Shown here piece by piece: positions 1,146-61,683 of a stretch of DNA of 64,000 nucleotides. The first letter of the stretch is position 1. Every line of letters starts with the position of its first letter. A program made the translations under genes and the position numbers. The stretch comes from a virus. The notes under the pieces were generated by a model, which saw only the letters and a list, made by a program, of their open reading frames with translations, searched no databases and was not told the DNA's origin. The stretch covers positions 21,036 to 85,035 of the IMG/VR virus record IMGVR_UViG_3300010399_000035; one strand, 5' to 3'.

Positions 1146-1151
1146 CCGAAA

Positions 1152-1178
1152 GCCCATCTTCTGGGAGAGATGCTCCGC
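1152..1178 (-). repeat. Dispersed repeat copy, intergenic
   Basis: A near-perfect copy in reverse orientation that begins 7 bp after the tail tube stop codon. With the forward copy 44 bp further on it makes an outward-facing pair that could fold into a large stem-loop between the tube gene and the chaperone gene. Confidence 0.85.
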
Positions 1179-1222: not shown

Positions 1223-1248
1223 GCGGAGATCTCTCCCAGAAGAGGGCC
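1223..1248 (+). repeat. Dispersed repeat copy, intergenic
   Basis: Forward copy with AGAGGGCC in place of AGATGGGCC. It is the right arm of the pair starting at 1152 and lies 39 bp before the chaperone start codon. Confidence 0.85.
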
Positions 1249-1287
1249 ATAAATTCGACTAAATCCGAGAGTAGTTGAAAAGGAATC

Positions 1288-3938: not shown

Positions 3939-5870
3939 ATGGGGACCTTCCGCGCATATACACTTAATAGCAAACAATACGTAGAGATAATTGCTACTGC
4001 TCTACCCGCCACAGATCGTAAGTGGGCAGGACTGTATGCACCTACTATACTAGGTAATATGGTAGACGGCGAATGGTTCTACTTTTGGGGCGCATACGCT
4101 CACTATGATTCATTTACTATAGACCTAGATCACCCGCAGAATACAGGGCCTTTCGTCTGGAGCAGCAGAGCACCGCTACCCAACTTCGTGACTATCACAG
4201 ACCTAGGTGGAGGTAACTTCAATTGGACTGTGCTCGTTAGCGGACCCAACTTCGACAATAGTAACGCTCAGCTGCCTGGAACGTTATACTTGATGAGCGG
4301 TGGGGTGCTATATCGCGCATATGTTGAAGTTATGACTGATAGCGAGAATGCATTCGTTCTGTCCGGTAGCGCTATGAGACGGAGGTTTACCGCAGAAATA
4401 GTATGGCGGCCTGGATTCCAGTATGTATCGTTTCCAGGGCCTACAACATTAGGGGCTCCAGCAACCTACGAGTGGATAGTGGTTCACGAAGATGGGAGCT
4501 CTGAATCGGTTTCTACGCTCCCAAAGCTAGATATAGACCCTCTCAAGCCAGCGTCGGGTGGGTTGTACAATACAGGACAAAGTCCATATCTACCTAAGCT
4601 ATACGCTCACACCTTAGACAGCCACGGTACAGAGGCCGACTGGTATCCGTCGAATGCTGGAGGTATCTTTGGATCATTTGGGTTCTACTGGAACTACTTC
4701 ATCCCTACCGCCAAAATCAAGGTAGATAACGGTACTAACCTCGGTTCCGGTAACTGGAGCGTGGACGACACCTTGGCTATTCTGGACGCTTCGGACTCGT
4801 TCGATCCCGACGGTACTATCGTAAACTATCATTGGATGATTGGATCTCCGCTCCAGAAAACGTATGATACTCCGGGACCCATCCTTCCGCTTGACTTCGA
4901 CGAAGGCTATCATAACTTGATTCAAGTACAGGTAACGGACAACGAAGGCTTCCAAGCTACTAGTCCGTATATCTCGCTACAGGTAGGAATCCGTGCTCGG
5001 CTGCTCTACGATAAGCATCTTCGTGCCCTATACTACTTCTATGCGGGATATCCGTTGTTCGTCAAGTGTGCTACTTCGTTCAACTTGGCTAGCTTCGATA
5101 CTTCCCAGGCAGTGTACACGTATCTGCACTTCTTTACCTTCGGAGAGCAGGCCATAGCGGCCACTAGCGCACTAGCAGCCTTCATGCTAGGCTCCATGCC
5201 TGCAGTAGCCTATACCTCCGGAGACTACGGTATCCAGTTATTCTACTCCAAGGATCATGGCGCGTCGTTCGTGCATACTCCGCTCTACGCAAACGCAGGG
5301 CTTTACGGCGGACTTTACAACGAACACACACGATCGCTCTTCATGCTGGGTATCACTACATACGGAGGACCTATTCGCCGCTTTTGCGCCCGCTACAATG
5401 GAGCGAACTGGACCACCGAACCAGCCGTAGACATACCTACGCTACCTTCAAGCAGCGTGGCGAATTGGCACCTTTTCTGGAGAGGCTCCACGTTGATGGT
5501 TGTGGTGGAGCACGACTCCGTAATCGAAATGTATGCCTCCAAGGATGACGGCTATACCTTCACCCTCCAGCACACCATTCCTGGCGGATATTCCCCGATG
5601 AGCGCCCGGTGGAATGATCATACACTGTCGGCGTATATCCTGTCCAGAAAAACGGGCGACCAAACCAACGTTTATAGGATCGTGGCCCGCACCAATGGCA
5701 ATGGGGATTGGGCGCATGACGATATAGCCCCAGTTAGCGGGATTCTAGCCGACTCTACGGGACTGGCGCACGAGATCGGCCAAGGGTCCGCCTATGCGAT
5801 TTCTCGCGCTGGAACGGCTTTAAACGCTGTGATTTCGAAGGATGAAGCATACAGCTACTCGGGGATTTGA
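3939..5870 (+). CDS. Tail protein with PKD domain and Asp-box (BNR) repeats
   Basis: A 643-residue beta-rich protein. Residues about 273-347 form a PKD-type Ig fold (DASDSFDPDG, later VQVTDNEGF). The second half carries two Asp-boxes, SKDHGASF near 435 and SKDDGYTF near 532, of the S-x-D-x-G-x-x-F type that caps blades of sialidase-like propellers. Both domain types bind or process surface sugars, so an adsorption role at the tail tip is likely. Catalytic sialidase residues were not identified. Its N-terminal 100 residues are unassigned. It follows the tape measure, the usual place of distal-tail genes. Confidence 0.65.
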   Translation: MGTFRAYTLNSKQYVEIIATALPATDRKWAGLYAPTILGNMVDGEWFYFWGAYAHYDSFTIDLDHPQNTGPFVWSSRAPLPNFVTITDLGGGNFNWTVLVSGPNFDNSNAQLPGTLYLMSGGVLYRAYVEVMTDSENAFVLSGSAMRRRFTAEIVWRPGFQYVSFPGPTTLGAPATYEWIVVHEDGSSESVSTLPKLDIDPLKPASGGLYNTGQSPYLPKLYAHTLDSHGTEADWYPSNAGGIFGSFGFYWNYFIPTAKIKVDNGTNLGSGNWSVDDTLAILDASDSFDPDGTIVNYHWMIGSPLQKTYDTPGPILPLDFDEGYHNLIQVQVTDNEGFQATSPYISLQVGIRARLLYDKHLRALYYFYAGYPLFVKCATSFNLASFDTSQAVYTYLHFFTFGEQAIAATSALAAFMLGSMPAVAYTSGDYGIQLFYSKDHGASFVHTPLYANAGLYGGLYNEHTRSLFMLGITTYGGPIRRFCARYNGANWTTEPAVDIPTLPSSSVANWHLFWRGSTLMVVVEHDSVIEMYASKDDGYTFTLQHTIPGGYSPMSARWNDHTLSAYILSRKTGDQTNVYRIVARTNGNGDWAHDDIAPVSGILADSTGLAHEIGQGSAYAISRAGTALNAVISKDEAYSYSGI

Positions 5871-9238: not shown

Positions 9239-9288
9239 GCGGAGCACTCTCTCCAGAAGATGGCCGCTCTTCTGGCAGAGATCTCCGC
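9239..9288. repeat. Full palindromic form of the dispersed repeat
   Basis: A forward copy (9239-9265) meets a reverse copy (9265-9288) head to head, giving about 23 bp of arms with few mismatches. It starts 3 bp after a stop codon and lies 22 bp before the next start. It could form a stable hairpin in RNA or a cruciform in DNA. Confidence 0.9.
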
Positions 9289-11720: not shown

Positions 11721-12056
11721 ATGCCAAACTACGTAGTAAGCGGAGCAGGGGATGCGGGATATAACGGTACCTACATTGATATAGGAGTAGCCTACCCAGG
11801 TTTCACTCCATATGTTGTCTACCAGTTGGACAGCACTCACTTCCTGTTCAATTCCAGCGGATTCTGGTATCTGTCTTCCTCGGTGGATAGCGCTGGTATC
11901 AGCGGAAACACCCATTACTACCAGAGCGATGGCGGCAACCCATCAGTAGTAATACTTGGACCCTACGTGAATGCAGGCGGTATGACAAATCCTGCACCCA
12001 CCGTTGCCGTCGCGGGGGCTGCAACCCACACAGGTGACATGTTCCTTGGCGGATAG
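11721..12056 (+). CDS. Small fibre-associated protein
   Basis: 111 residues; ATG at 11721 chosen because AAGGA lies 7 bp upstream and the previous gene stops 8 bp before. Rich in Gly, Tyr, Ser and Val with alternating strands (YNGTYIDIGVAYPGFTPYVV), as in receptor-binding tips or fibre chaperone-like partners. It is the last plus-strand tail gene before the terminator. Confidence 0.65.
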   Translation: MPNYVVSGAGDAGYNGTYIDIGVAYPGFTPYVVYQLDSTHFLFNSSGFWYLSSSVDSAGISGNTHYYQSDGGNPSVVILGPYVNAGGMTNPAPTVAVAGAATHTGDMFLGG

Positions 12057-12106
12057 AGGAGATCTCTCCCAGAAGATGGGGCCATTCTTTGGAGAGGGTC
12101 CTCCGC
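12057..12106. repeat. Full palindromic form of the dispersed repeat
   Basis: Begins immediately after the TAG of the preceding gene: a perfect left arm (GGAGATCTCTCCCAGAAGATGG) read in two parts around a short centre, then a degenerate right arm ending in CTCCGC. Confidence 0.9.
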
Positions 12107-13791: not shown

Positions 13792-15948
13792 TCATTCAGC
13801 CCTCCGTACCTTCACTCTCCTAATTCCAGGCTTCGTAACAGGCGTGGCCTTCTTCAATCCAGCCGCTTCCCACAGATTCACTATATGGTCCGTAGCCCCA
13901 TATAAGTAACGCGGAGCGCCCCGCCCAAATGGATTCTCCGTGCGGGTCTTGGTGACTGCTCCCAGAAGATAGAGGTCTTCCAGTTGGTCGCGCAATGTTG
14001 AGAGGGGAATATCCAACTTCTCGCAGAGCGGTTCGATGAAGAAGTCTCCGTCATTACAGAATGCGGCCACCGCTTCCAGATTAAACCCCACGCAAGTATC
14101 CAAGGCTACGCGACTTACGATAGAGTAGTTGTCTTCGTCCAGCTTAGGTGTGTGGGACAGCAGCGAGAGCCCGTAGGTTAGCTTAGTCAATTGCTTGCCA
14201 ATGCGGGTACCCATTTCATGCTGGGGACGGTACTGCAACTTCTCTTGCCCGCCCGACCAGGCTCGGTTCACATTAGCGCGAAGGATGCCGACCAGCGAAG
14301 CCAGCGCTACAATCTTCGTGATGAGCCACTCCGGCATGGCGGGTAGCGTATACGGATCTATCTTTACCTCCACGAACCTACGTACGATGTCGTGAAGGTC
14401 CTCGCGCATGCCAATCTCTTGGCCTACGTTGCCTATGGCGGTGCGGATGGCGGCGTCCGCGTTCGGGTTGTGGCCTACTCCCTTGACCAAGTGGAACATC
14501 AAGAACCGCTCGCCAAGGGCTGCGGTTCGCTCACCGAACACGGCATGCGTCACGCCGCTGATCATGTTGAATTGGACTTCGTAGTTGCGCACCAATCCGT
14601 TGCCGTAGTGCTTGGTGACGGAACCGTCGTAGGCTCCGCGTAGGGTGCCGTAGATTTCGTCGCGTTGGGTGGCAGGCAGGTTCAGTATCTCGGTGAAGTC
14701 CTTCAACACGAATGTCTTCTTGTTCAGCCTGGGGAGCAGGGACGGATCCCCACCGCCCCGCGTAGCGAAGCCGCTAACTAGGCTATGCGCCGTCAAGGTA
14801 CTGGCGAAGTAGCAACTAGGGCAGCCGCTGAGAGGCATCAGGAGTTCCGTCTTCGCCGTCCCTGGAGGAGATACGATATGCATCCAGAGCGGATCCCCAC
14901 CGATCTGGTTCGAGAGCACCACGGCGAAGATTAGCTTAAGGCCCGTCACCATATCGTCCGACATCTTCAGGTGCTGCCGGAACACAGATAGTACTTGGTC
15001 GAAGGTTGGGCGTTCGGTGGAATCTGGGGGCGGAAGCGATTCTATATGGGCAGCTTGCTCCGCTTGTTCGTTGATTTGGGCTTCGGAGACATAGATGGTA
15101 ACTAGGGATTGGAGTTCCTGGTAGGTACCTCCGCTAACCACAAAGTCGCGGATGTCGAACTTATTAGGAAGAGAGGATGGCCACTTGACATGAAGGAAAT
15201 CTTTGGCATGTCCGGCGAGTTTGCCGGCCAAACGATCGGTGCCCTTGACTCCGCCCGCGTCATGGTCGAAGCAGCATATGACGGTCCGCCCCGACACATA
15301 CTCCGACCAACGATCCTTCCATACTCCTGCTCCGGGCACACCAATTACAACGCCTTCAGCGGAGCTCTGCTCCAGAAGATGGCGTAGGGCTATCGCATCC
15401 CATTCACCCTCGCAAACGTAGACAGGTTCGCAAGCCTTGGCTAGGTCCAGCAACGCAGCCAAGTTCCATATAGAGAGTTCCAGACCCCAGATGGACTCTA
15501 GCTTGAAGTCTTCGCCGCACCGACGAAAGTTAACGATTTTTCCGTGGCCATTGTAGATCGGGATGTACCAATGGACGCCATCGTGAACAATGCCAGTTGA
15601 TTGTAGGACTTGCGGTGGTAGGTGGCGGCTAGCGGCTAGTTCGGCTAGCCATTCGGGCACCAGACTAGAACTTAGTTCAGTCCCATTTAGTTGCGCGGTG
15701 GGAGTGGGCTGCGCGTACATGCGGTACCACTCCGCTAAGAACGTATAGGTATTACCGTTCAACCCACAGGAGCCAGCCTTGCAATCCCACTGACCCGTTG
15801 CGGCGTTGATGTACAGCTTCTTGCGTCCTCCACAAAAGAGGCAGTCGCCGTAGTATTCGTCTCCCGCATGATTATCCGCGTGATATTCGAAGCCTAATGC
15901 GATGAACGGTCTAAGTTTGGGAGGAACTTCGGATGAGCTCCTCGCCAT
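13792..15948 (-). CDS. DNA primase-AAA+ ATPase (replicative primase/helicase)
   Basis: 718 residues from the ATG at 15948, which overlaps the upstream stop as TAATG; the longer frame would run through the upstream gene. Order: CHC2-like zinc site (C36, C39, C56, C61), TOPRIM primase domain (E180 in VCEGEWDA; D228, D230 in CFDHDAGG), linker, then an AAA+ module with Walker A PPGTAKTE (361-368), Walker B FVLKDFTE (413-420) and a GERFL arginine-finger region, and a C-terminal helical domain possibly of winged-helix type. It should make primers and unwind DNA at the fork with the nearby PolA. HLLEQSSAEG (about 190-199) inside the TOPRIM domain is encoded by a dispersed repeat. Confidence 0.85.
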   Translation of the reverse strand: MARSSSEVPPKLRPFIALGFEYHADNHAGDEYYGDCLFCGGRKKLYINAATGQWDCKAGSCGLNGNTYTFLAEWYRMYAQPTPTAQLNGTELSSSLVPEWLAELAASRHLPPQVLQSTGIVHDGVHWYIPIYNGHGKIVNFRRCGEDFKLESIWGLELSIWNLAALLDLAKACEPVYVCEGEWDAIALRHLLEQSSAEGVVIGVPGAGVWKDRWSEYVSGRTVICCFDHDAGGVKGTDRLAGKLAGHAKDFLHVKWPSSLPNKFDIRDFVVSGGTYQELQSLVTIYVSEAQINEQAEQAAHIESLPPPDSTERPTFDQVLSVFRQHLKMSDDMVTGLKLIFAVVLSNQIGGDPLWMHIVSPPGTAKTELLMPLSGCPSCYFASTLTAHSLVSGFATRGGGDPSLLPRLNKKTFVLKDFTEILNLPATQRDEIYGTLRGAYDGSVTKHYGNGLVRNYEVQFNMISGVTHAVFGERTAALGERFLMFHLVKGVGHNPNADAAIRTAIGNVGQEIGMREDLHDIVRRFVEVKIDPYTLPAMPEWLITKIVALASLVGILRANVNRAWSGGQEKLQYRPQHEMGTRIGKQLTKLTYGLSLLSHTPKLDEDNYSIVSRVALDTCVGFNLEAVAAFCNDGDFFIEPLCEKLDIPLSTLRDQLEDLYLLGAVTKTRTENPFGRGAPRYLYGATDHIVNLWEAAGLKKATPVTKPGIRRVKVRRAE
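13951..13974 (+). repeat. Partial dispersed repeat inside the primase gene
   Basis: TGCTCCCAGAAGATAGAGG retains the core only; it encodes LYLLGAV on the opposite strand. May be chance. Confidence 0.35.
15359..15384 (+). repeat. Dispersed repeat inside the primase TOPRIM domain
   Basis: A clear copy (GCGGAGCTCTGCTCC then AGAAGATGGCG) antisense to the gene, translated as HLLEQSSAE between the first TOPRIM strand and the next. Confidence 0.8.
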
Positions 15949-19183: not shown

Positions 19184-19234
19184 GCGGAGCATCTCTCCCA
19201 GAGAATGGGCCATCCTCTGGCAGAGGCGCTCCGC
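19184..19234. repeat. Full palindromic form of the dispersed repeat
   Basis: Head-to-head copies with GCGGAG and CTCCGC at the ends and GGGCC at the centre, in the 79-bp gap between the small Cys protein and the polymerase gene. Confidence 0.9.
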
Positions 19235-19559: not shown

Positions 19560-20314
19560 TAGACGCCCATCCCTCCCGGCATAGTCAGTACGGTGCCGGA
19601 GCACTGTTCGGGCAGACTGTTCACGGCGAAGTCGTACAGCTTCCAGACTTCCTCGAAAGTACATCCGCGTCCGAATGGGCTCTGGGAGAAGTACTTGGTG
19701 GCTTGCTCTTCGGACATGCCCCGCGTCCGCTGGAGCTCACGGATGGCTTGCGCCTTCATCTCCGTGTCGTCAATGCCGCCAGGGGCGATGGAGCACACAA
19801 CGATGGGCAACCGCCCCGCGAACTCCTTCGCGAAGACCTTCGTCAAGGCATCCAGTCCAGCCTTCGAAGCACAGTACCCAGGGCTAGCTCGGAGGCTAAT
19901 TTTGGTGCCCATGGACGAAGTGTTCACAATGCGGCGAAGTCGTTCTCGGGGGACGGATTCGTCGTTTTTAACTCGACGGGCGAATTCCCGGCAGAAAAGG
20001 AACGGAGCCACCAGGTTCACATTTAAAACGGCGCTGAAATCCCCCAAGGAATGGTTCTCGAGGAAGTCGATCTTGGTCATGCCTGCATTGTTAATGAGGA
20101 CGTCGATTGGGCCACCCATGGAAGCTTCAGCCTGGTCGAAGATGTGGTTAAGTTCTTCTTCGAACGAGTATGGTTCGGGGTAGGTGGCGTTGAAGTCGCT
20201 CTCGAAGTCCGGTCCGCCCAAGCCCACGCCGAACACCTCATGCCCTTGCTCCAGCAGTCGTTCCCGGATATAGGCTCCAATGCTGCGCGAGCAGCCTGTC
20301 ATTAAGATTCTCAT
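19559..20314 (-). CDS. Short-chain dehydrogenase/reductase (SDR)
   Basis: 251 residues with the classical signature: TGCSRSIG cofactor loop (6-13), NNAG, catalytic Ser in NTSSMG, YCASK, and the C-terminal PGG turn. It should be an NAD(P)(H)-dependent oxidoreductase with a Rossmann fold; the substrate cannot be read from the sequence. It lies between replication and nucleotide genes, so a sugar-nucleotide or nucleobase-related reaction is conceivable. SDR genes are rare in phages of this kind. Confidence 0.9.
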   Translation of the reverse strand: MRILMTGCSRSIGAYIRERLLEQGHEVFGVGLGGPDFESDFNATYPEPYSFEEELNHIFDQAEASMGGPIDVLINNAGMTKIDFLENHSLGDFSAVLNVNLVAPFLFCREFARRVKNDESVPRERLRRIVNTSSMGTKISLRASPGYCASKAGLDALTKVFAKEFAGRLPIVVCSIAPGGIDDTEMKAQAIRELQRTRGMSEEQATKYFSQSPFGRGCTFEEVWKLYDFAVNSLPEQCSGTVLTMPGGMGV

Positions 20315-21899: not shown

Positions 21900-21925
21900 G
21901 ATTCTCGGTTCCTTTTTAACGGCTT

Positions 21926-21952
21926 GGCTATCTTCTGGGAGAGATGCTCCGC
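21926..21952 (-). repeat. Dispersed repeat copy upstream of thyX
   Basis: Almost perfect, in the sense direction of the minus-strand mRNA, 26 bp before the thyX ATG and 3 bp after the previous stop. Reading through it in frame would add SLPEDS to the protein. Confidence 0.9.
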
Positions 21953-22929: not shown

Positions 22930-23648
22930 TCGGCCTCCACTTCAACCATACGCGGAGTATCCTCTCCAGAGGAGGGCCCAGTTTCTGGTAGGGTTTCCTG
23001 CTGGGCAGCCCAGGCTTCGCAAACGGACCAGTTGAAGTGTTGGGCCTTCACCGGCAAATTAGCGAGCTCACCACTGATGCCATATACGCTGGTGAGACGG
23101 CTACGATCGTAGATAGAGTTGGGGATGCAGCCGCTGAGTTCGGAGTCCAGGAACAGTGCCAACCTGGAGTACCCAGACAGGAGCCCGTCGCAGCCATGCG
23201 TCAACATAACGTTCAAGTGCTCAGCCTTCTTCGTTGGGTGGAAGCCGACGACAAGCTTGCCTAGTCCTCTGGCCGTACCCATCTCCCAAACTGTACCTGT
23301 GTCGGGGAGTTCGAGCTCCCTTATAGGCACGGTGATATCCACCTTCAAATCGGTGTATTCGCTGTGCTTCGGTTCCAACTTGCAAGCGCAAATGCGCTCG
23401 TTCGGCGGTAACGCATACGCAAGCACCGCCAAGAGCAAATCACACTCCTGGATGGACTGCTCGTTCCAGTTGAAGAGGGGGAGCCAAGCGGCAGGATTCT
23501 TGCGCTGGTCCTTCGGGGGTAGGAAGGGCTCGCTGCCGAGTCGAGGGGAGAGGAATTCGTGTCCGGCAGAGGTGATTATGTCTTCAATTGTGGCAATGAT
23601 GCCGCGTTGGGGCTCGTTGAAGAGCGGTGCGGCTATGTAGATTTTCAT
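22923..23648 (-). CDS. Nucleoside 2-deoxyribosyltransferase-like protein
   Basis: 241 residues. N-terminal MKIYIAAPLFNEPQRG is the family hallmark; ECDLLLAVL (about 69-77) and DTGTVWEMGTARGLGKLVVG (about 117-136) are the Asp and Glu active-site blocks. It would exchange bases on deoxynucleosides, or hydrolyse them. The C-terminus (GPSSGEDTPRMVEV) comes from a dispersed repeat. AGGAG precedes the start. Confidence 0.85.
   Translation of the reverse strand: MKIYIAAPLFNEPQRGIIATIEDIITSAGHEFLSPRLGSEPFLPPKDQRKNPAAWLPLFNWNEQSIQECDLLLAVLAYALPPNERICACKLEPKHSEYTDLKVDITVPIRELELPDTGTVWEMGTARGLGKLVVGFHPTKKAEHLNVMLTHGCDGLLSGYSRLALFLDSELSGCIPNSIYDRSRLTSVYGISGELANLPVKAQHFNWSVCEAWAAQQETLPETGPSSGEDTPRMVEVEAEC
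22952..22979 (+). repeat. Dispersed repeat in the 3' end of the deoxyribosyltransferase gene
   Basis: Forward copy, antisense to the gene, encoding GPSSGEDTPR near its C-terminus. A weak reverse half follows to about 22996. Confidence 0.85.
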
Positions 23649-24564: not shown

Positions 24565-24591
24565 GGCCCCTCTTCTGGAGAGAGTCTCCGC
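24565..24591 (-). repeat. Dispersed repeat copy, intergenic
   Basis: Good copy in the sense direction, in the 157-bp gap between the ATPase gene and the DUF669 gene, which holds nothing else recognisable. Confidence 0.85.
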
Positions 24592-30886: not shown

Positions 30887-30896
30887 TGTGGTTTTG

Positions 30897-30924
30897 GGCG
30901 CTCCTCTGGGAGAGATGTCTCCGC
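30897..30924 (-). repeat. Dispersed repeat copy, intergenic
   Basis: Sense orientation, 11 bp upstream of the zinc-ribbon gene, in the 61-bp gap before the coiled-coil gene. Confidence 0.85.
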
Positions 30925-33190: not shown

Positions 33191-33493
33191 TTATTGATTT
33201 TTGGGCCCATCTTCTGGGAGAGATACTCCGCTATCCGTTTGGGCGTGGGTATCGATGAAGTCTGCTATCTGATGTAGGAACCGGGCGCGTTCGCAGCGGA
33301 AGTGGCTGCCTGATGGGGTGGGTTCATCATCATAGATGGTGGTGAAGAGTAGCGCGTTCAGGACGCTTTCGGCGTCTAGTTCGACGTACTCATACGGTGG
33401 GTCTTGGTTGGGTCGTGGGATGGATAGTTTGGTTCGGTGCATAGTAGGTGCGGAGCTCCTCCCAGAAGATGGGGCCTTTGGTTTAGTCGTCAT
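33191..33493 (-). CDS. Small protein built around two dispersed repeats
   Basis: 100 residues from the ATG at 33493, which overlaps the upstream stop. Residues about 6-17 (KAPSSGRSSAPT) and the C-terminus (SGVSLPEDGPKNQ) are each encoded by a dispersed repeat, in opposite orientations and different frames. The middle (YVELDAESVLNALLFTTIYD) is helical. A rare case of one gene keeping two copies in frame. Confidence 0.65.
   Translation of the reverse strand: MTTKPKAPSSGRSSAPTMHRTKLSIPRPNQDPPYEYVELDAESVLNALLFTTIYDDEPTPSGSHFRCERARFLHQIADFIDTHAQTDSGVSLPEDGPKNQ
33203..33231 (-). repeat. Dispersed repeat encoding a C-terminus
   Basis: Perfect copy in the gene's sense direction; gives SLPEDGP, as at 61631. 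Confidence 0.9.
33450..33476 (+). repeat. Dispersed repeat encoding an N-terminal segment
   Basis: Good copy antisense to the gene, giving APSSGRSSA near the N-terminus. Confidence 0.9.
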
Positions 33494-36333: not shown

Positions 36334-36361
36334 GGGTGGTATTCTGGGAGAGATGCTCCGC
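36334..36361 (-). repeat. Dispersed repeat copy, intergenic
   Basis: Sense direction, with the GGGCC end eroded, in the gap before the DUF932-like gene's stop. It is 9 bp upstream of the small membrane gene's ATG. Confidence 0.8.
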
Positions 36362-37292: not shown

Positions 37293-37319
37293 ATTATGCC
37301 CGATCTTGGGGTGTTTGGG
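37293..37319 (-). promoter_or_regulatory. Phage promoter P3
   Basis: CCCAAA, 15 nt ending GATCGGG, CATAAT. Overlaps the 3' end of the upstream gene. Drives the DUF932-like gene. Confidence 0.7.
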
Positions 37320-37680
37320 TGGGGTTTATTGGGGTATTTTCGGAATTATTTGATGGTAGGTTTCGTACCCAGAAATCTTTGATGGCGGCTTCCTGGTTTT
37401 CGTAGGTATAGGGAAGTGTGGTTAGTGACTGATTTGGGGCGGTTGGCAAGTATTCGCGTAGTAGATCGACGTAATAGTCGCATAGTCGCTCCACTGATTT
37501 CAGGTATTTAGCTTGCCGTTGGCAGCGGCGATAGGCGTGATGTGGGTTGCGGAGCCTTGGGTTGCTGATGAGTTTGGGCGTTCTTCTGGGAGAGATGCTC
37601 CGCGTTCGATATATAGTGTTTAATTGCCGCGAATAGGTTGGGTGGCCGTATATGGTGGAAGGGTAGGTTGGGTGCTTCAT
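37294..37680 (-). CDS. Unknown basic protein, 128 residues
   Basis: Basic first half including RSISPRRTPK from a dispersed repeat, then helical LKSVERLCDYYVDLLREYL. The 3' end contains the next promoter. No family recognised. Confidence 0.6.
   Translation of the reverse strand: MKHPTYPSTIYGHPTYSRQLNTIYRTRSISPRRTPKLISNPRLRNPHHAYRRCQRQAKYLKSVERLCDYYVDLLREYLPTAPNQSLTTLPYTYENQEAAIKDFWVRNLPSNNSENTPINPTQTPQDRA
37576..37603 (-). repeat. Dispersed repeat inside a basic protein gene
   Basis: Sense copy read in the frame RSISPRRTPK, a different frame from the SLPEDGP copies. Confidence 0.85.
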
Positions 37681-38858: not shown

Positions 38859-38886
38859 GGGTCGTCCTCTGGGAGAGATCCTCCGC
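38859..38886 (-). repeat. Dispersed repeat copy, intergenic
   Basis: Sense copy 11 bp upstream of the Nudix-like start, in the 111-bp gap before the Lar-like gene's stop. Confidence 0.85.
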
Positions 38887-40889: not shown

Positions 40890-40894
40890 CAGAA

Positions 40895-40921
40895 ATTATG
40901 CCTCAATCTGAAGCGGCTGCG
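40895..40921 (-). promoter_or_regulatory. Possible phage promoter P4
   Basis: Has the CATAAT box, GGCCCC and the A/T-rich upstream stretch, but the CAAA box is not at 15 nt. Weakest member of the family. Confidence 0.4.
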
Positions 40922-40983
40922 GGGCCTGTGAGAAAATAAATTGGAGGTTATTTTCGTACCACAATTCGACAGCGTCAAGTTTT

Positions 40984-41010
40984 GGCCCATCTTCTGGGCA
41001 GGATTTCCGC
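40984..41010 (-). repeat. Dispersed repeat at the edge of the gene-free region
   Basis: GGCCCATCTTCTGGG then CAGGATTTCCGC; sense direction. Confidence 0.85.
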
Positions 41011-41276
41011 TGTGGTGGGCCGCGTGGCAGGCGAAAACAGGGTACGGACATGGACTCGTCCGTAACTTAAGACTGACTGGGCTTAAAGCTGGGTTGGCTC
41101 ATTTTGAGTGCTCCGGTTTTAATCGGCCTCGCCAAAATACGACCAAACCTTATTAAAACGGTGTTTCAAAGGGGCGAGACGAAGGACTGAAAATCGCCCC
41201 TCTCGCAGGGCTGTGTCACCGTTTTAAAGATTTCTGTTCGGAGTTCGAGCAAATCTGCGAGTATCCTGGATTAAGG

Positions 41277-41627
41277 TCTAGAAACGGTCACCCCAGAAGT
41301 TGGGACAGCGCACAGAAAATGTGCGTTTTTGGGCTCATCTGCGGATTTTGTAGATGGCTCAAATTCCACCGTTTTGGTTTTTGTATTTGGCAATTATTTA
41401 CTTAAATTGACCATATATTAAAATATGATATTACTTAAAAATATCATGACAAAAAGCAAAAAGCGCATGACGAACGATACCCACCCATCCAGCAGTCGCA
41501 AGCGAACTCCCTGTCGCCGTTACCATAAGACGGACCAGGCGAAAACAGGGCTGGCCCGGTTCGGGGGCACCCTCGCCGCCCAACGCATCCGATGGCTGTC
41601 CCAACTTTCAAGGTGACCGTTTCTAGA
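41277..41627. repeat. 33-bp inverted repeat pair spanning 351 bp
   Basis: TCTAGAAACGGTCACC, six variable bases, GTTGGGACAGC on the left; the reverse complement on the right. Only the six central bases differ in part. Confidence 0.8.
41309..41330 (+). terminator. Possible plus-strand intrinsic terminator
   Basis: CGCACA, GAAAA loop, TGTGCG, then TTTTT. No gene ends here, so a short untranslated transcript may end at this point. Confidence 0.5.
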
Positions 41628-41727
41628 GTTCGACCTTTTCAGCGAGAAAAACGGAATTCCGCACAAATCCGCCAAAACCGCCCACTTCGCGCCGCGCCCA
41701 ACCCGCCACCACTCGCTAACTATCAAC

Positions 41728-41755
41728 GCGGAGGATCTCTCCCAGAAGATAGGCC
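41728..41755 (+). repeat. Dispersed repeat beside a minus-strand terminator
   Basis: Good forward copy directly next to the terminator T-run. Confidence 0.85.
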
Positions 41756-41790
41756 AAAAGAAAACCCCAGCAGTGTGTAGCTGCTGGGGT
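41756..41790 (-). terminator. Intrinsic terminator
   Basis: ACCCCAGCAG and CTGCTGGGGT pair around a 7-nt loop, then TTTTCTTTT on the minus strand; ends the unit of the gene at 41811-42188. Confidence 0.9.
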
Positions 41791-41810
41791 TGCTCCAAAC
41801 TACCACGACT

Positions 41811-42188
41811 TCATAGACGATCCAACAGCCCACCTAACAGATGCACCATCATCGCGGCAGCTGCAGCCTCACGGAAGTGGGCCACTTGCCAGCCATCGCC
41901 GTTGTGGGAGATGGAGCCGGTGTGCAACCCGAGCAACTTGTTTAGGGCGTAGTCGTAGTCGCGCTGGACGGACTCCTTCAACTTGTCCTGCTCCGGATAC
42001 TGCAGCGCGATTTCGGTGGAGCGAATGTAGCTCAGCTTCGCCTTGGCGATGATCCAAGCTTCGGTGTACATCTCCAACGACTCGGCGCTGGTGTAGCGAT
42101 TTGGCACGACTTCGCACACAGCTTCCTTCGCGGACACTTCCGCTTGGTGCAACGCTTCTACGACTTCGGCCACGGACTCTAACTTCAT
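41811..42188 (-). CDS. Unknown 125-residue helical protein
   Basis: ATG at 42188 with AAGGAGA 6 bp upstream. Helical, Ala/Glu-rich, with ESVAEVVEALHQAEVSAKEA. No family recognised. Followed by a strong terminator. Confidence 0.75.
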   Translation of the reverse strand: MKLESVAEVVEALHQAEVSAKEAVCEVVPNRYTSAESLEMYTEAWIIAKAKLSYIRSTEIALQYPEQDKLKESVQRDYDYALNKLLGLHTGSISHNGDGWQVAHFREAAAAAMMVHLLGGLLDRL

Positions 42189-42545: not shown

Positions 42546-42584
42546 TGCTTGCCTCCGTTGGGCCTGTCGCCCTTACCATTAATA

Positions 42585-42611
42585 ATTATAACCGATCGGT
42601 ACAGGTTTGGG
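42585..42611 (-). promoter_or_regulatory. Phage promoter P5
   Basis: CCCAAA, 15 nt ending CCGATCGGT, TATAAT. Best example of the family. Confidence 0.85.
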
Positions 42612-42620
42612 GGCCTTTTT

Positions 42621-42646
42621 AGAAAGTATTTTCGAAAATACTTTCT
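42621..42646. repeat. 26-bp perfect palindrome upstream of P5
   Basis: AGAAAGTATTTTC with its exact reverse complement. Similar A/T-rich palindromic stretches lie upstream of other members, at the place of an UP element or activator site. Confidence 0.8.
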
Positions 42647-42928
42647 GGCCGCTACCCGCCTAGGGCCTGTAGAAGGTGTCGCTGTTGAAAACTTCGTCTG
42701 TAGTGGGTCTATATTGCGCGTTCGCGGGGCGGGCGGAGCCTTGGGGCTGAAGGCGGGCAAACGGCCCTAGAAATGGCGCTGAGCGCGAAGAGCGGGGTAT
42801 TTGGGGGTGTGGGGCGGGCGAATGGATGGTCCAAGCCACGCGGCGACCAAACATCGCACGAGGTAGGTGGACACCACCACGGCGATTGGGCCACACCAAG
42901 ATGATTCGCTAATTTCCAAGCGTGGTCA

Positions 42929-42957
42929 GCGGAGGTATCTCTCCCAGCAGATGGGCC
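42929..42957 (+). repeat. Dispersed repeat copy, intergenic
   Basis: Core has CAGCAGATGGGCC instead of CAGAAGATGGGCC. Confidence 0.85.
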
Positions 42958-45285: not shown

Positions 45286-45313
45286 GCGGAGCATCCTCTC
45301 CAGAAGACGGGCC
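45286..45313 (+). repeat. Dispersed repeat just upstream of a start codon
   Basis: On the mRNA it reads CTTCTGGAGAGGATG, 5 bp before the ATG at 45280; it may contribute GGAGAGG to translation start. Confidence 0.85.
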
Positions 45314-45718: not shown

Positions 45719-45778
45719 ACGAACTCCTTTTAACGTCTTTAGCGTTGCCTGGGCTTGGAACCAGGACTGCCGCATTAC

Positions 45779-45795
45779 GGCCCGGAGGGGCCGTC
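45779..45795. repeat. Short GC hairpin between small genes
   Basis: ACGGCCC and GGGCCGT around GGA/TCC; no T-run, so only a weak terminator candidate. Confidence 0.4.
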
Positions 45796-45803
45796 CTCTG
45801 CGA

Positions 45804-46061: not shown

Positions 46062-46088
46062 ATTATGCCTGATCGGTACCCGTTTGAG
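46062..46088 (-). promoter_or_regulatory. Phage promoter P8
   Basis: CTCAAA, 15 nt ending CCGATCAGG, CATAAT. Confidence 0.8.
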
Positions 46089-46266
46089 TGGCTTTTTCAG
46101 GAAAATTATTAATTATTTTTCTGGCCACTCCCGCCCGCCTGTGGAGCAGGTACTCATCGATGTTCGGTAGGAGCTCCGCACCCAGCAGCCCGACAAGGTC
46201 TAGGCGCAATCGCTGTTCGCTATCTGCTGGTCGCGGAGAAACCTCTCCCAGAAGATGGGCGTTCAT
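46063..46266 (-). CDS. Possible small protein starting in a dispersed repeat
   Basis: 67 residues; the ATG overlaps the upstream stop (ATGA), and the first codons (NAHLLGEVSPRP) are the dispersed repeat in another frame. The 3' end runs into promoter P8, which argues against it; the coupling argues for it. Confidence 0.4.
   Translation of the reverse strand: MNAHLLGEVSPRPADSEQRLRLDLVGLLGAELLPNIDEYLLHRRAGVARKIINNFPEKATQTGTDQA
46233..46260 (+). repeat. Dispersed repeat at a gene junction
   Basis: Clear forward copy ending 3 bp before the stop of the gene at 46263-46505. Confidence 0.85.
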
Positions 46267-49796: not shown

Positions 49797-50831
49797 CTAG
49801 CTCGCGGCCTCCGCGAAGAACTGATCCAACGCGCGACCACTCAGCGAACAATCCACCAGCAACTCCGGAGCAATGTGGCCTTCGTAGCGCATGGGGTGGC
49901 GGCGGGATTTCTTGGTAGGTTTGGGCGCGGGAGCGCGTTGAATGGCAGGCTTCGCGGCACGCCCACGCGGAGCATCCGCTCCAGAAGATGGGCCATCAGT
50001 ATTCAACTTCGCCACGATCTGACGGCGGATTTCTACACGATCGGGCGCATGCTCGTACACAGGGTAGGAATTCAATACGTTCTGAACTTCCCGCTGAATC
50101 TCGGCTTCGGTTGGAATCAAGGGCAACGGATCGCTGAGATCGATCGCCGGGATCTCCACAGCCATCGCCCCACCATGTTGCGGGTGGGGCAAGCCGTAGT
50201 GCTCGGCGCAGATCGGGCCGTAGCCAACTTCCACGGAACCTTCCTCTTCGAGCGTCCGGCCGCAGAAGCAACAGGCACCCAACAGACGGCCATACTCGGC
50301 GGCAACTTGCACCGGATTGACGGCGAAGCGAAGCACAACTTCGCGAATAGCGGGCGACATAGCCTTACCTTCCACCAGACGGCCATCCGGGTCAATGCGT
50401 CCGAACCAGGTACGGTCTTCGTATGAACCGGACGAGACAACCGAGAGGGATTGGGGGTGCTTGCTAGCCGAAGTGTTCGGCAGAATGCGGAAGTCTACCA
50501 CTTCGCCAGTGGGGGCGGTGGCTTGCAGCCGAACCTTGGGCCGCTTGAGGGCCTTGGCAGCGGTGGCGAACAGTTCGTAGATCTTGGCGACTTCGGCTAT
50601 CGATTCCGACGACCGCTGCGCGCCCGTCGCCAACGAATCCATCGCCAGCTTGTGCACCCACCACCATTGCTCGCTGCTCAGCGAACCCTTGGCGGTGAAA
50701 TCCGCTACCAACTTCGCGGCGAAGGAGTCGGGCTTGCCTTCGGCCAACCCAACCAATTCCTCCATTGCTTCCCGGTACGTAAACGGCGATTCCAACGTTC
50801 CCCGCTTGCCTGCTACACGATTCCGAATCAT
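49797..50831 (-). CDS. DUF6011-like zinc-finger protein
   Basis: 344 residues. CCFCGRTLEEEGSVEVGYGP and ICAEHYGLP (about 186-215) form the DUF6011 zinc knuckle seen in many phage proteins. N-terminal half is helical and beta mixed; the C-terminal part is basic and Pro-rich and holds GPSSGADAPRGR from a dispersed repeat. AGGAG precedes the start; promoter P10 upstream. Function unknown. Confidence 0.75.
   Translation of the reverse strand: MIRNRVAGKRGTLESPFTYREAMEELVGLAEGKPDSFAAKLVADFTAKGSLSSEQWWWVHKLAMDSLATGAQRSSESIAEVAKIYELFATAAKALKRPKVRLQATAPTGEVVDFRILPNTSASKHPQSLSVVSSGSYEDRTWFGRIDPDGRLVEGKAMSPAIREVVLRFAVNPVQVAAEYGRLLGACCFCGRTLEEEGSVEVGYGPICAEHYGLPHPQHGGAMAVEIPAIDLSDPLPLIPTEAEIQREVQNVLNSYPVYEHAPDRVEIRRQIVAKLNTDGPSSGADAPRGRAAKPAIQRAPAPKPTKKSRRHPMRYEGHIAPELLVDCSLSGRALDQFFAEAAS
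49967..49994 (+). repeat. Dispersed repeat inside the DUF6011-like gene
   Basis: Antisense copy in the linker between two domains, giving GPSSGADAPR. Confidence 0.9.
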
Positions 50832-51751: not shown

Positions 51752-51779
51752 GCGAAGGACTCTGTCCAGAGGATGGGCC
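51752..51779 (+). repeat. Dispersed repeat, variant form
   Basis: GCGAAGGACTCTGTCC then AGAGGATGGGCC; shares the GCGAAGGACTCTG start with the copy at 58973, so these two form a subtype. Confidence 0.75.
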
Positions 51780-51889: not shown

Positions 51890-52861
51890 TTAACTCGTAT
51901 CGCCCAACAACCACTCCTTGACGTCTTCGTAGTTGTCGGAAATGGCGAGCAGGGTTTCCTTTGCCTCGTCCTCTTCGTTCATGTCGTCGGCCCACTGGTT
52001 CTCGTCGCGGAGGGAGAGGACTTCAGCGGTGATTAGGTCTGCCAGGTTGCTGGGAGCCATCGCATCCAACTCCCACGATTCCTCGCCGAACTCGTCTATG
52101 TAGGCACCTGCGCGAGGATCCGTCACTTTGGCCGGATCCGGCGGCAAGCTATATAACTCAACCTGATCCATATTGAGCGCGATGCGCCGAACGGAGATAT
52201 CTCTCCCAGAAAAGAGGGCCAATCGATCATCGATGTCCCGCGTCATGTCTTTGCCGGATGGGTCGTGGTCGCCAAGGTGGATGACGACTGGTTTACGGTC
52301 GTTAGTGTCCGCCGCCTTCCGCAGCCTTTGTCCAGCTCCCCAAAGTTCCGAAGACGAAGTGTACCCGCGACAGGAGAAGTGGGGTACGTCCAGTGGTTGG
52401 CAGGCTTGCTCCACGATGCCGATTAAGGCATCCTTCTCGACCCATACCTCTACGTAGTAAGGTTGGAGTAGCCATTTATCAAGCCGGAACTGATCCGCTA
52501 CAGCACCTAGGATATCGCTGGGAGAATCCCAGTGTGGCAAGTTGCGCAAGTTCCTGGTGCGATCCGTAATGTGCGTCCAGTCTAGCAAACCGCCGTAGCG
52601 GGCCTCATTCAAGATACCACCAAGCTTCTTGTAGTTCTTCATGGTGTTCTTGGTGTCGGGTGATAGACCGTTGCGACGGTTATATACCGGATCTATCCAA
52701 GAGTCTGGGAAATAGTCGTGCGCGATGAACTGGTAGTATAGCTGGCGGAGGGTAAGGTCGTAGCCCAACGCATGCCATTCGCGAATGATGGCATTCGCCT
52801 GCTCGATGATGGCCAGCTTCTCTGGACGGAATTTGATGTAGCGGTAGGCAATGCGGGGCAT
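51890..52861 (-). CDS. TopoVI-A/Spo11-like TOPRIM protein (Mini-A type)
   Basis: 323 residues. A winged-helix-like part with LTLRQLYYQF (Y42, Y43, where TopoVI-A and Spo11 hold the catalytic Tyr) is followed by a TOPRIM domain: E142 in VWVEKDA and D198-D200 in LGDHDPSGKD. Layout matches the stand-alone Mini-A relatives of TopoVI-A on mobile elements, which lack a B subunit; no B-like ATPase is in this window. It may nick, cut or join DNA. LFSGRDISV (about 216-224) is encoded by a dispersed repeat. Confidence 0.7.
   Translation of the reverse strand: MPRIAYRYIKFRPEKLAIIEQANAIIREWHALGYDLTLRQLYYQFIAHDYFPDSWIDPVYNRRNGLSPDTKNTMKNYKKLGGILNEARYGGLLDWTHITDRTRNLRNLPHWDSPSDILGAVADQFRLDKWLLQPYYVEVWVEKDALIGIVEQACQPLDVPHFSCRGYTSSSELWGAGQRLRKAADTNDRKPVVIHLGDHDPSGKDMTRDIDDRLALFSGRDISVRRIALNMDQVELYSLPPDPAKVTDPRAGAYIDEFGEESWELDAMAPSNLADLITAEVLSLRDENQWADDMNEEDEAKETLLAISDNYEDVKEWLLGDTS
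52191..52220 (+). repeat. Dispersed repeat inside the Mini-A-like gene
   Basis: Antisense copy within the TOPRIM region, read as LFSGRDIS. Confidence 0.85.
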
Positions 52862-53593: not shown

Positions 53594-53776
53594 CTAAATT
53601 GCAATCAACTTTGAGATCGCTGTGTCCAGCAAGTCAAGATTGAAGTATGCGATTTCCTCTTCTTCGGTATTCGCAAAGGAGGCGGGCTTCATAGCCAGAT
53701 CTACCTCTTCTTCTATCGACAGAGCCTTGAGTTGCATCGCCAAAGCCTTTATTTTCGCTAGCCGATCATCGGTCAT
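53594..53776 (-). CDS. Small helical protein, 60 residues
   Basis: MTDDRLAKIKALAMQLKALS, acidic middle. The only ribosome-site candidate is GGGAGAG from the adjoining dispersed repeat, 5 bp before the ATG. First gene after promoter P12. Confidence 0.65.
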   Translation of the reverse strand: MTDDRLAKIKALAMQLKALSIEEEVDLAMKPASFANTEEEEIAYFNLDLLDTAISKLIAI

Positions 53777-53777
53777 T

Positions 53778-53800
53778 GGATCTCTCCCAGAAGATGGCGC
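53778..53800 (+). repeat. Dispersed repeat forming a ribosome-binding site
   Basis: On the mRNA strand it ends CTTCTGGGAGAGATCCAATG, so its GGGAGAG lies just before the ATG at 53776. GCGGAG end is missing. Confidence 0.7.
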
Positions 53801-56323: not shown

Positions 56324-56701
56324 ATGGAATACAACAACGATACTATCACGTACTGGGAATGCCCGGTATGCTTACGTCAGATAGATTCCTGGGAGTTCGA
56401 CGTTCATCTCTTCCGGCACTTAGCGGAGGAGGCTCCTACTACCGCATTGAACGACCATGGAGCAAACGGCAATGGCACTATGTTGGCTGCAGCCATAGAT
56501 CTGCTAGGGGTGGGGGCCGTCAATGGATTTGGAGGAGTAGAAATTGGCGATCCTGGACTGGAAGAGTTCCTGACGAAGCAAGAGGCCGAACTAATGGAGT
56601 TTGATGTCTGGTTGAGTTGCGAACAGTTACGGCGCTACCGTATCTACTGGGAGCGACACTACCGTAAGTATCGAGCGGAAGAGGAAGGAGGGGATGACTA
56701 G
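56324..56701 (+). CDS. C2H2-like zinc-finger protein
   Basis: 125 residues from the ATG at 56324 (an earlier TTG is less likely). ECPVCLRQIDSWEFDVHLFR plus H fits a C2H2 finger (about 11-30). Gly/Ala middle, acidic-helical end. First plus-strand gene of the right block. Confidence 0.65.
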   Translation: MEYNNDTITYWECPVCLRQIDSWEFDVHLFRHLAEEAPTTALNDHGANGNGTMLAAAIDLLGVGAVNGFGGVEIGDPGLEEFLTKQEAELMEFDVWLSCEQLRRYRIYWERHYRKYRAEEEGGDD

Positions 56702-57123
56702 TGGCCCAATACTATAACTGGGATAGAGCCGACTATAACAGCGATCCCTTCCGCATTATGTTCGACAACTACTTCCGTCGAACCGGGACGCGCCACCCCG
56801 CCGACCCCAAGTATAAGGAATGGCAGGAAGCACAAAGCACCCCTCCCGGCAACCCTTCGGCTGGACGCGGAGCATCTCCTCCAGAAGAGGGGCCAAAATC
56901 CACAGCTCCGTATGTGTCGCTCGAGGTTCGTAAGGCGGCAGATTTTCTGGCTGCGAACTCGACTATACGCTCCGATTATATAACTACGTCCCCAGAGCGA
57001 ATGAAAGCCGCTTACCGCGAAGCGACTCAGAAGCTACGCCCCGATCTTGGCCGCAACCACGAAGCCTCGGTTCAGTTGAACGCCGCCTACGCCACGTTGA
57101 AGCGATTTCATGGCGTTCGGTGA
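56701..57123 (+). CDS. J-domain-like protein with RPD in place of HPD
   Basis: 140 residues with a GTG start overlapping the upstream TAG. The C-terminal 45 residues (MKAAYREATQKLRPDLGRNH, QLNAAYATLKR) follow helix II, loop and helix III of DnaJ J-domains, but HPD is RPD. The N-terminal half has an aromatic helix and a linker holding RGASPPEEGPKS from a dispersed repeat. May bind or mimic co-chaperones of host DnaK. Confidence 0.55.
   Translation: MAQYYNWDRADYNSDPFRIMFDNYFRRTGTRHPADPKYKEWQEAQSTPPGNPSAGRGASPPEEGPKSTAPYVSLEVRKAADFLAANSTIRSDYITTSPERMKAAYREATQKLRPDLGRNHEASVQLNAAYATLKRFHGVR
56867..56894 (+). repeat. Dispersed repeat inside the J-domain-like gene
   Basis: Sense copy in the SLPEDGP frame, here ASPPEEGPK. 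Confidence 0.9.
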
Positions 57124-58972: not shown

Positions 58973-59000
58973 GCGAAGGACTCTGCCCAGAAGATGGGCC
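58973..59000 (+). repeat. Dispersed repeat, variant form
   Basis: GCGAAGGACTCTGCCC then AGAAGATGGGCC, between the small membrane gene and the next gene. Confidence 0.85.
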
Positions 59001-60872: not shown

Positions 60873-60899
60873 GCGGAGATCTCTCCCAGAAAAATGGGC
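60873..60899 (+). repeat. Dispersed repeat that supplies a start codon
   Basis: GCGGAGATCTCTCCC then AGAAAAATGGGC; the ATG inside it is the start of the next gene, and the GGAG 15 bp upstream could help. Confidence 0.85.
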
Positions 60900-61247
60900 A
60901 ATCCAAAAACGTTGGTGGCCGTTTGGCTGGTCTCCTTCATTGTATCAGGGCTGATACTGGAAGGAGACCTTTTGGCACACCATGCGCTGCTCATTAGTTG
61001 GTACATTGCAACTTGGTTCGTGGCCTACCCAGCCTTCGTGTTCAGTGTTGGAGTGTTGATGGGGCATTGGGCAGGGCAGGGGTTTAAGGTAAACCGCTGG
61101 CTGGATTTGGTAGTATGGGTACTCATAGCCATAGTAGTAGCAGCGATAGCTCTGCCTACCCTAGCTTTGTTCGTTGCGGGCGTGGCCGCAGGACATAGCT
61201 TCTGGCAGTTCAAGGATAACAAAATCGCTGTATCCGAGAAAGGATAA
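60894..61247 (+). CDS. Multi-span membrane protein, 117 residues
   Basis: Start codon lies inside a dispersed repeat. Three hydrophobic segments: LVAVWLVSFIVSGLIL, WYIATWFVAYPAFVFSVGVL, and LVVWVLIAIVVAAIALPTLA; short charged tail. May take part in lysis or exclusion. Confidence 0.7.
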   Translation: MGNPKTLVAVWLVSFIVSGLILEGDLLAHHALLISWYIATWFVAYPAFVFSVGVLMGHWAGQGFKVNRWLDLVVWVLIAIVVAAIALPTLALFVAGVAAGHSFWQFKDNKIAVSEKG

Positions 61248-61248
61248 C

Positions 61249-61683
61249 ATGTCAAAGAAGATAGTTAGGCTTACCGAGGACGTAGAGGACTTTGAAGGCA
61301 ACTCTGCCAATATTACCGTAGGCAAGGTAATTATTCGCCAGCTACAGAACATGCCCCTAGCCGAAAATCCACAAGTCGGTGCCACACAAGGTGACCTGGA
61401 TAAGGCACTCCGCTGTAGAGCTCTCGTTCGTAGACTACAAAAGGCCATGCAGCAAACTCCTCCGGACGACCGTTTAGAAAAGGTCTCCGAAACAGACTAT
61501 ACAGTCATTGACGAAGCTATCAAACGGAACCCGATTGGATTCCCTAGAGCACTCATGACGCAGGTCATAGAAGCCTACAGGGGTATCTCTTACGATGAGT
61601 CCGACGACCGCGACGACCGCGACGAGTCGAGCGGAGAATCTCTCCCAGAAGATGGGCCTCCAAAACTAGAAGCCGTAGGCTAA
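61249..61683 (+). CDS. Small helical protein with repeat-encoded tail
   Basis: 144 residues from the ATG at 61249 after AAAGGA. Helical, with LRCRALVRRLQKAMQQTPPD and DEAIKRNPIGFPRALMTQVI, an acidic Asp/Arg run, then SGESLPEDGPPKLEAVG from a dispersed repeat. The position before the fibre gene and size suggest an assembly helper. Confidence 0.65.
   Translation: MSKKIVRLTEDVEDFEGNSANITVGKVIIRQLQNMPLAENPQVGATQGDLDKALRCRALVRRLQKAMQQTPPDDRLEKVSETDYTVIDEAIKRNPIGFPRALMTQVIEAYRGISYDESDDRDDRDESSGESLPEDGPPKLEAVG
61631..61658 (+). repeat. Dispersed repeat encoding a C-terminus
   Basis: Perfect sense copy in the frame SGESLPEDGPP, the same peptide as the copy at 33203 on the other strand. Confidence 0.9.

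Follow-up and report, generated by a model that had tools for sequence, protein, structure and literature searches.

A directional 28-nt repeat in a soil phage is conserved by site and reverses its orientation at a predicted replication origin

A directional 28-nt repeat is dispersed over about 30 sites in the genome of a soil phage; its copies are conserved by site in a related virus, and their orientation reverses at a predicted replication origin and again near the opposite point of the map. The reading that we tentatively favor is that of a conserved DNA site which acts in cis, has a direction and, at both replication forks, lies on the template of the lagging strand.

The DNA analysed, hereafter the window, is a 64-kb stretch corresponding to positions 21,036-85,035 of an 85,035-base IMG/VR virus record. 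The record belongs to a tailed phage encoding a portal, large terminase, major head protein, DNA polymerase, TOPRIM primase and a ThyX-like gene, for which no close phage isolate was found. One collinear relative, IMGVR_UViG_3300025919_000136 (below, the relative), is ~80% identical to it at the nucleotide level (roughly 70-90%), with numerous gene gains and losses. This record and IMGVR_UViG_3300005339_000005, obtained from different metagenomes, are 100% identical in their overlaps and represent the same virus. A search for wider relatives carrying the repeat, based on capsid, terminase and polymerase, returned only the relative; distant relatives (31-66% identity) lack the repeat, and one of them (L037) contains a few repeats that are unrelated to this one. 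Genes are predictions throughout, the map is taken to be circular because the contigs of both records are circularly permuted, and some counts were done by hand from tables.

A profile trained on the copies defines the repeat unit as GCGGAGCATCTCTCCCAGAAGATGGGCC, in which two conserved blocks are accompanied by a variable pyrimidine stretch. The complete 85-kb record contains 45 copies scoring at least 10 bits, 34 of which score at least 16 bits and are referred to as strong; the corresponding numbers for the window are about 35 and 29 (Table 1). The repeat family is real and far above chance: 20 Markov-shuffled windows gave 0.1 matches of at least 10 bits per window, and the top score on the reversed sequence was 7.5 bits. 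When exact repeat patterns were searched in IMG/VR, eight contigs with one chance match each were obtained besides the two records of the relative, and the repeat matched nothing in GTDB genomes or phage isolates. The DNA hairpin folds of the copies were weak and inconsistent (about -2 to -7 kcal/mol). In addition, no common stem was found among the copies, and mutual information revealed no covarying helix, its signal being confined to local register shifts of the pyrimidine stretch. There is thus no support for a structured single-strand signal, and recognition of the sequence is more likely than recognition of a stable hairpin.

Table 1. Copies of the repeat and the predicted replication origin, in window coordinates
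Feature	Position	Strand	Score (bits)	Remarks
Repeat unit	1151..1178	-	31.9	6 nt past stop codon; ortholog in relative at 1019-
Repeat unit	1223..1249	+	25.6	intergenic; ortholog identical 27/27, flanks diverged
Head-to-head pair	9239..9288	9239-9266 + / 9262-9288 -		shared GGCC centre; directly past stop codon
Head-to-head pair	12055..12106	12055-12082 + / 12079-12106 -		
Head-to-head pair	19184..19234	19184-19211 + / 19207-19234 -		intergenic
Repeat unit	21925..21952	-	27.8	intergenic
Repeat unit	22952..22979	+	23.6	antisense, C-terminal tail of deoxyribosyltransferase-like gene (GPSSGEDTPR)
Repeat unit	24565..24591	-	20.8	overlying small ORF has stop in relative; probably non-coding
Repeat unit	30896..30923	-	15-16	intergenic; start codon 10 nt away
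Repeat unit	33204..33231	-	32	C-terminal tail of gene 33191-33442 (SGVSLPEDGP)
Repeat unit	33450..33475	+	17	leader of gene 33191-33442
Repeat unit	36334..36361	-	20.7	intergenic
Repeat unit	37576..37603	-	25.2	reads RSISPRR in ORF 37294-37680, likewise in relative
Repeat unit	38859..38886	-	21.4	intergenic; 11 nt before start codon
Predicted replication origin	40890..41811			longest non-coding stretch, AT-rich block, AAACGG/CCGTTT iterons, orientation flip
Repeat unit	40984..41010	-	20.8	last minus copy left of predicted origin
Repeat unit	41728..41755	+	28.3	first plus copy right of predicted origin
Repeat unit	42930..42957	+	18.5	intergenic
Repeat unit	45286..45313	+	26.1	between two genes (6 and 8 nt)
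Repeat unit	46234..46261	+	20	antisense over start of ORF 46063-46266
Repeat unit	49967..49994	+	26.7	antisense, extension behind DUF6011 domain (GPSSGADAPR)
Repeat unit	51752..51779	+	18.3	intergenic
Repeat unit	53773..53800	+	20	over gene start; relative without homologous DNA there
Repeat unit	56867..56894	+	27.8	in gene 56701-57123 (RGASPPEEGP)
Repeat unit	58973..59000	+	20.4	10 nt past stop codon
Repeat unit	60873..60900	+	21.9	between two genes, overlaps start codon
Repeat unit	61631..61658	+	30.5	C-terminal tail of gene 61249-61683 (SGESLPEDGP)

Most copies lie at gene junctions. About 21 of the 29 strong copies in the window are non-coding (hand count) versus 15% expected (binomial p=6e-12), and a stop or start codon is located 4-11 nt from many of them. 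For 30 of the 34 strong copies of the record a counterpart, in some cases lower-scoring, is present in the relative at the same site and in the same orientation. The other four are the primase site, the copy at window position 53773, where the relative has no homologous DNA, the copy at record position 19657, which lies beyond the sequence compared, and that at record position 82666, which is uncertain. The repeats are 85% identical between the two viruses versus 64% and 69% for their 30-nt flanks (35 of 38 sites, p=9e-9). Comparison of these viruses, which are ~20% diverged, revealed no clean empty site. Together, the conservation of sites, the higher identity of repeats than of flanks and the lack of an empty site indicate that the element is constrained and has not recently been mobile; as judged from these sequence comparisons, recent mobility is not supported. 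About 12 of 35 indel edges fall at a repeat (hand count), which is close to the share of junctions that bear a repeat, and we do not claim that the repeat is a recombination hot spot.

The orientation of the copies flips inside a block of genes that are all on the minus strand, and the two copies between which it does so bracket a ~920-nt region, the longest non-coding stretch (Table 1). This region, which was noticed via the flip, has the features of an origin independently of it: a ~73% AT block, AAACGG/CCGTTT iterons at 6.5 per kb versus 0.47 in the window (14-fold enrichment), and a sharp drop in GC skew that occurs at the corresponding place in both viruses while gene direction is unchanged. 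On the basis of these sequence features we predict that it is the replication origin. The region also contains a 33-nt inverted repeat (41277-41309 / 41595-41627). Counting single copies of both viruses combined, there are 18 plus and 1 minus copies on the right arm and 3 plus and 10 minus copies on the left arm. An orientation permutation test on both viruses gave p=3e-4 for this polarity when the origin was fixed and p=0.007 when both breakpoints were left free, statistics that come from two viruses with shared sites and thus little independence; for the 85-kb record alone the free-breakpoint p was 0.016-0.05. In the free fit the second breakpoint fell at about 20-22 kb of the record, nearly opposite the predicted origin. 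Exceptions to the polarity are found at record positions 4754-, 22258+, 43987+ and 54485+. In addition, there are four conserved head-to-head pairs with a GGCC centre (record positions 10.0, 30.3, 33.1 and 40.2 kb), and these occur only 22-33 kb from the predicted origin.

If replication starts at the predicted origin, it can be deduced that on either arm the strand reading GCGGAG...GGCC serves as template for the lagging strand or, equivalently, is the nascent leading strand. The site would then be presented on the lagging-strand template at both forks and could be read, perhaps in single-stranded form, by a replication or recombination protein; candidate roles would be lagging-strand priming, a primosome-loading site or a Chi-like signal. 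Far from the origin forks may come from either side, and the double-headed copies would serve both directions. Copies inside genes would be tolerated because the frames used encode linkers or tails rich in Gly, Ser, Pro and Asp. Chi, KOPS and ssi/PAS sites are oriented by replichore or strand and are read by replication, recombination or segregation proteins. The phage repeat resembles them in that its orientation reverses at the predicted origin and roughly halfway around the map. Chi and KOPS have a length of 5-8 bp and ssi are usually single structured sites, and we know of none of these types that forms a set of ~30 sites in a phage. In a fuller form of the proposal, about 30 directional signals, arranged by replichore on the ~85-kb phage chromosome and double-headed at a distance from the origin, would direct the synthesis of lagging strands, the restart of forks or recombination coupled to them while the chromosome is replicated bidirectionally; this is possible, if rather doubtful. 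An incomplete literature search found no phage repeats oriented by replication or replichore.

Among described cases, the closest is the 17-bp dyad repeat found in Corndog and other Cluster O mycobacteriophages, of which more than 30 copies are present, many of them intergenic and about one third in coding regions, and the function of which is unexplained (PMC4351075). As in Corndog, tens of short near-identical repeats are distributed genome-wide and conserved among relatives. Unlike the repeat described here, which is directional, 28 nt long and oriented by replichore, the Corndog repeat is a perfect 7-3-7 dyad that is nearly symmetric, and the two sequences are unrelated. A set that is conserved at each site and changes polarity at a predicted origin would tie short dispersed phage repeats to replication.

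Dispersed, constrained and asymmetric junction sites of this kind also resemble, besides the Corndog repeat, the stoperators of Cluster A mycobacteriophages, which are 13-bp sites oriented with transcription and read by the immunity repressor, at least 20 of them dispersed in short intergenic spaces (PMC9283540). The repeats could accordingly be fixed double-stranded binding sites of a phage or host protein, either repressor/stoperator-like or nucleoid/segregation-like, the polarity being secondary or partly accidental. Conservation in sequence blocks and not in stems agrees with such sites. However, while stoperators follow transcription, the orientation of the phage repeat agrees with the gene strand in 12 of 23 cases and is transcription-independent. 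Moreover, a unit of 28 nt that comprises two conserved blocks as well as a variable stretch of pyrimidines is long for a single repressor site, and the flip at the predicted origin is left unexplained. We consider this explanation unlikely. No immunity repressor was identified and no Phage_integrase domain was found.

A replichore bias might also be left behind by a short palindromic mobile element that, by REP/IS200-IS605-like single-strand transposition, inserted into the lagging-strand template, the present copies being its relics. Like REP/BIME sequences, the repeat is a unit in the 20-40 nt range with a G-rich 5' end, it prefers intergenic positions and it forms inverted pairs, the head-to-head pairs being reminiscent of BIME/REPIN; furthermore, the IS200/IS605 relatives of the REP system act on the lagging-strand template, and in-frame REP copies have been described inside tnpA genes (PMC6006769). 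REPs go together with a Y1 (TnpA-REP) transposase and a paired stem (PMC6006769), whereas here no GTAG/GTGG guide, stable stem or clean empty site was found, and a Y1 transposase (PF01797) was detected in neither virus but in the control genomes. Apart from the chance matches in IMG/VR, the searches found no match to the repeat outside this phage group, and neutral relics would not remain more conserved than their flanks. A transposition relic is therefore quite improbable.

We give little credence to an RNA-level element that would act in transcripts as a leader, processing or end signal. The short distance of many copies to a stop or start codon would fit such an element, as would the Shine-Dalgarno-like purine-rich stretches that occur on both strands of the unit (GGGAGAG, AGAGGAG). 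Yet sense and antisense copies are about equal in number, and the weak folds, the lack of covariation and the lack of an Rfam match at the repeat all argue against it. PeSL cassettes of T4-type phages, another short repeated intergenic element, consist of an early promoter and a stem-loop, both of which are absent from the phage repeat.

An earlier note on this DNA had proposed that the repeat was inserted into genes without breaking the frame, at sites where the proteins tolerate it, as with the protein-coding palindromic elements of Rickettsia; the latter are ~150 bp long and often inside genes (PMC10969869). The peptides on which this view was based are indeed encoded. In sense orientation these are SGVSLPEDGP, SGESLPEDGP, RGASPPEEGP and RSISPRR (Table 1), and in antisense orientation GPSSGEDTPR (22952), GASSGENSPP (35685), GPSSGADAPR (49967), ALFSGRDISV (52192), PVFLERIS (48349) and RHLLEQSSA (15359), the copies at 15359, 35685, 48349 and 52192 being weak (10-16.5 bits). 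Further strong copies, which the note does not mention, lie outside the window in the portal gene and in other structural genes. As with the Rickettsia elements, the repeat is thus read in frame inside unrelated genes, but unlike them it is 28 nt long, conserved by site and mainly non-coding, so that translation concerns a minority of the copies. Six of the seven sense copies share one frame (x-G-A-S-L-P-E-D-G-P; p~0.02); a shared frame in four of the six antisense copies is not significant. The small gene at 33191-33493, said to carry two copies, carries one. It starts with an ATG at 33442, the other copy is located in its leader, and ahead of this ATG the relative is in a different reading frame (PIFWKESPPT versus PSSGRSSAPT).

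The idea of tolerated sites holds for the strong in-gene copies, which encode flexible peptides and are located in a Pro-rich linker that follows the core of the portal protein, in an extension after a DUF6011 domain, and in C-terminal tails. The portal linker copy (L001:3944, outside the window) reads SGASSPEDGP and is identical at 28/28 positions in the relative, and homologues of the portal, DUF6011 and tail proteins end before the copy or differ at the site. In-frame insertion itself is not supported. Both viruses have these strong copies, and an allele without any of them was not found; since all of them are shared, an exact 28-nt insertion in frame cannot be demonstrated. Three cases cited as insertions are rejected, as they are ungapped parts of conserved proteins; their ungapped alignment with homologues that have none or little of the repeat is the outcome that the note had named as refuting its view. 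The presumed insertion into a TOPRIM domain lies in a protein (51890-52861) that aligns with four homologues from phages (45-48% identity) without gaps over most of LFSGRD, the primase copy at 15359 (HLLEQSSAE), in the gene at window positions 13792-15948, aligns ungapped with a relative lacking most of the motif, and FLERIS (48349) belongs to an ungapped stretch of a conserved protein. A search of the TOPRIM-like protein against the PDB gave a single spurious match. Despite the common sense frame and the flexible peptides, a selfish, Rickettsia-like coding element is very improbable, given a predominantly non-coding family, no presence/absence polymorphism, the three ungapped cases and the difference in unit length. 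Since the copies for the most part lie outside coding sequence, keep their sites and follow the replichore in their orientation, translation in a few genes is more likely a by-product of an element acting at the DNA level; in-frame translation of a repeat need not imply protein-level selection or mobility.

Several other features of this DNA were observed. Four structural genes that neighbour one another share a peptide motif of the type DDEPRDEHGRWTSGG, two of them having it twice (L001 2512-12050: the tail of the portal and the genes starting with that at 4605, followed by 5786 and 9384). The plus-strand GC skew is unusually strong in both viruses in the 30-41 kb region of the window (+0.2 to +0.39 per kb), which borders the predicted origin on its left. 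A Twister-P5 ribozyme (53 bits) is located at window positions 45749-45802 on the minus strand and also in the relative (L010:13933-13987), within a short block that is about 95% identical between the viruses. Finally, a second dispersed repeat family, TATTATAACCGATCGGTACAGGTTTGGGGGCCTTTT, is found at window positions 42584-42659 and at about 10 further places between 13680 and 56179, all in one orientation; read on the reverse strand it is promoter-like (TTATAAT) for minus-strand genes.
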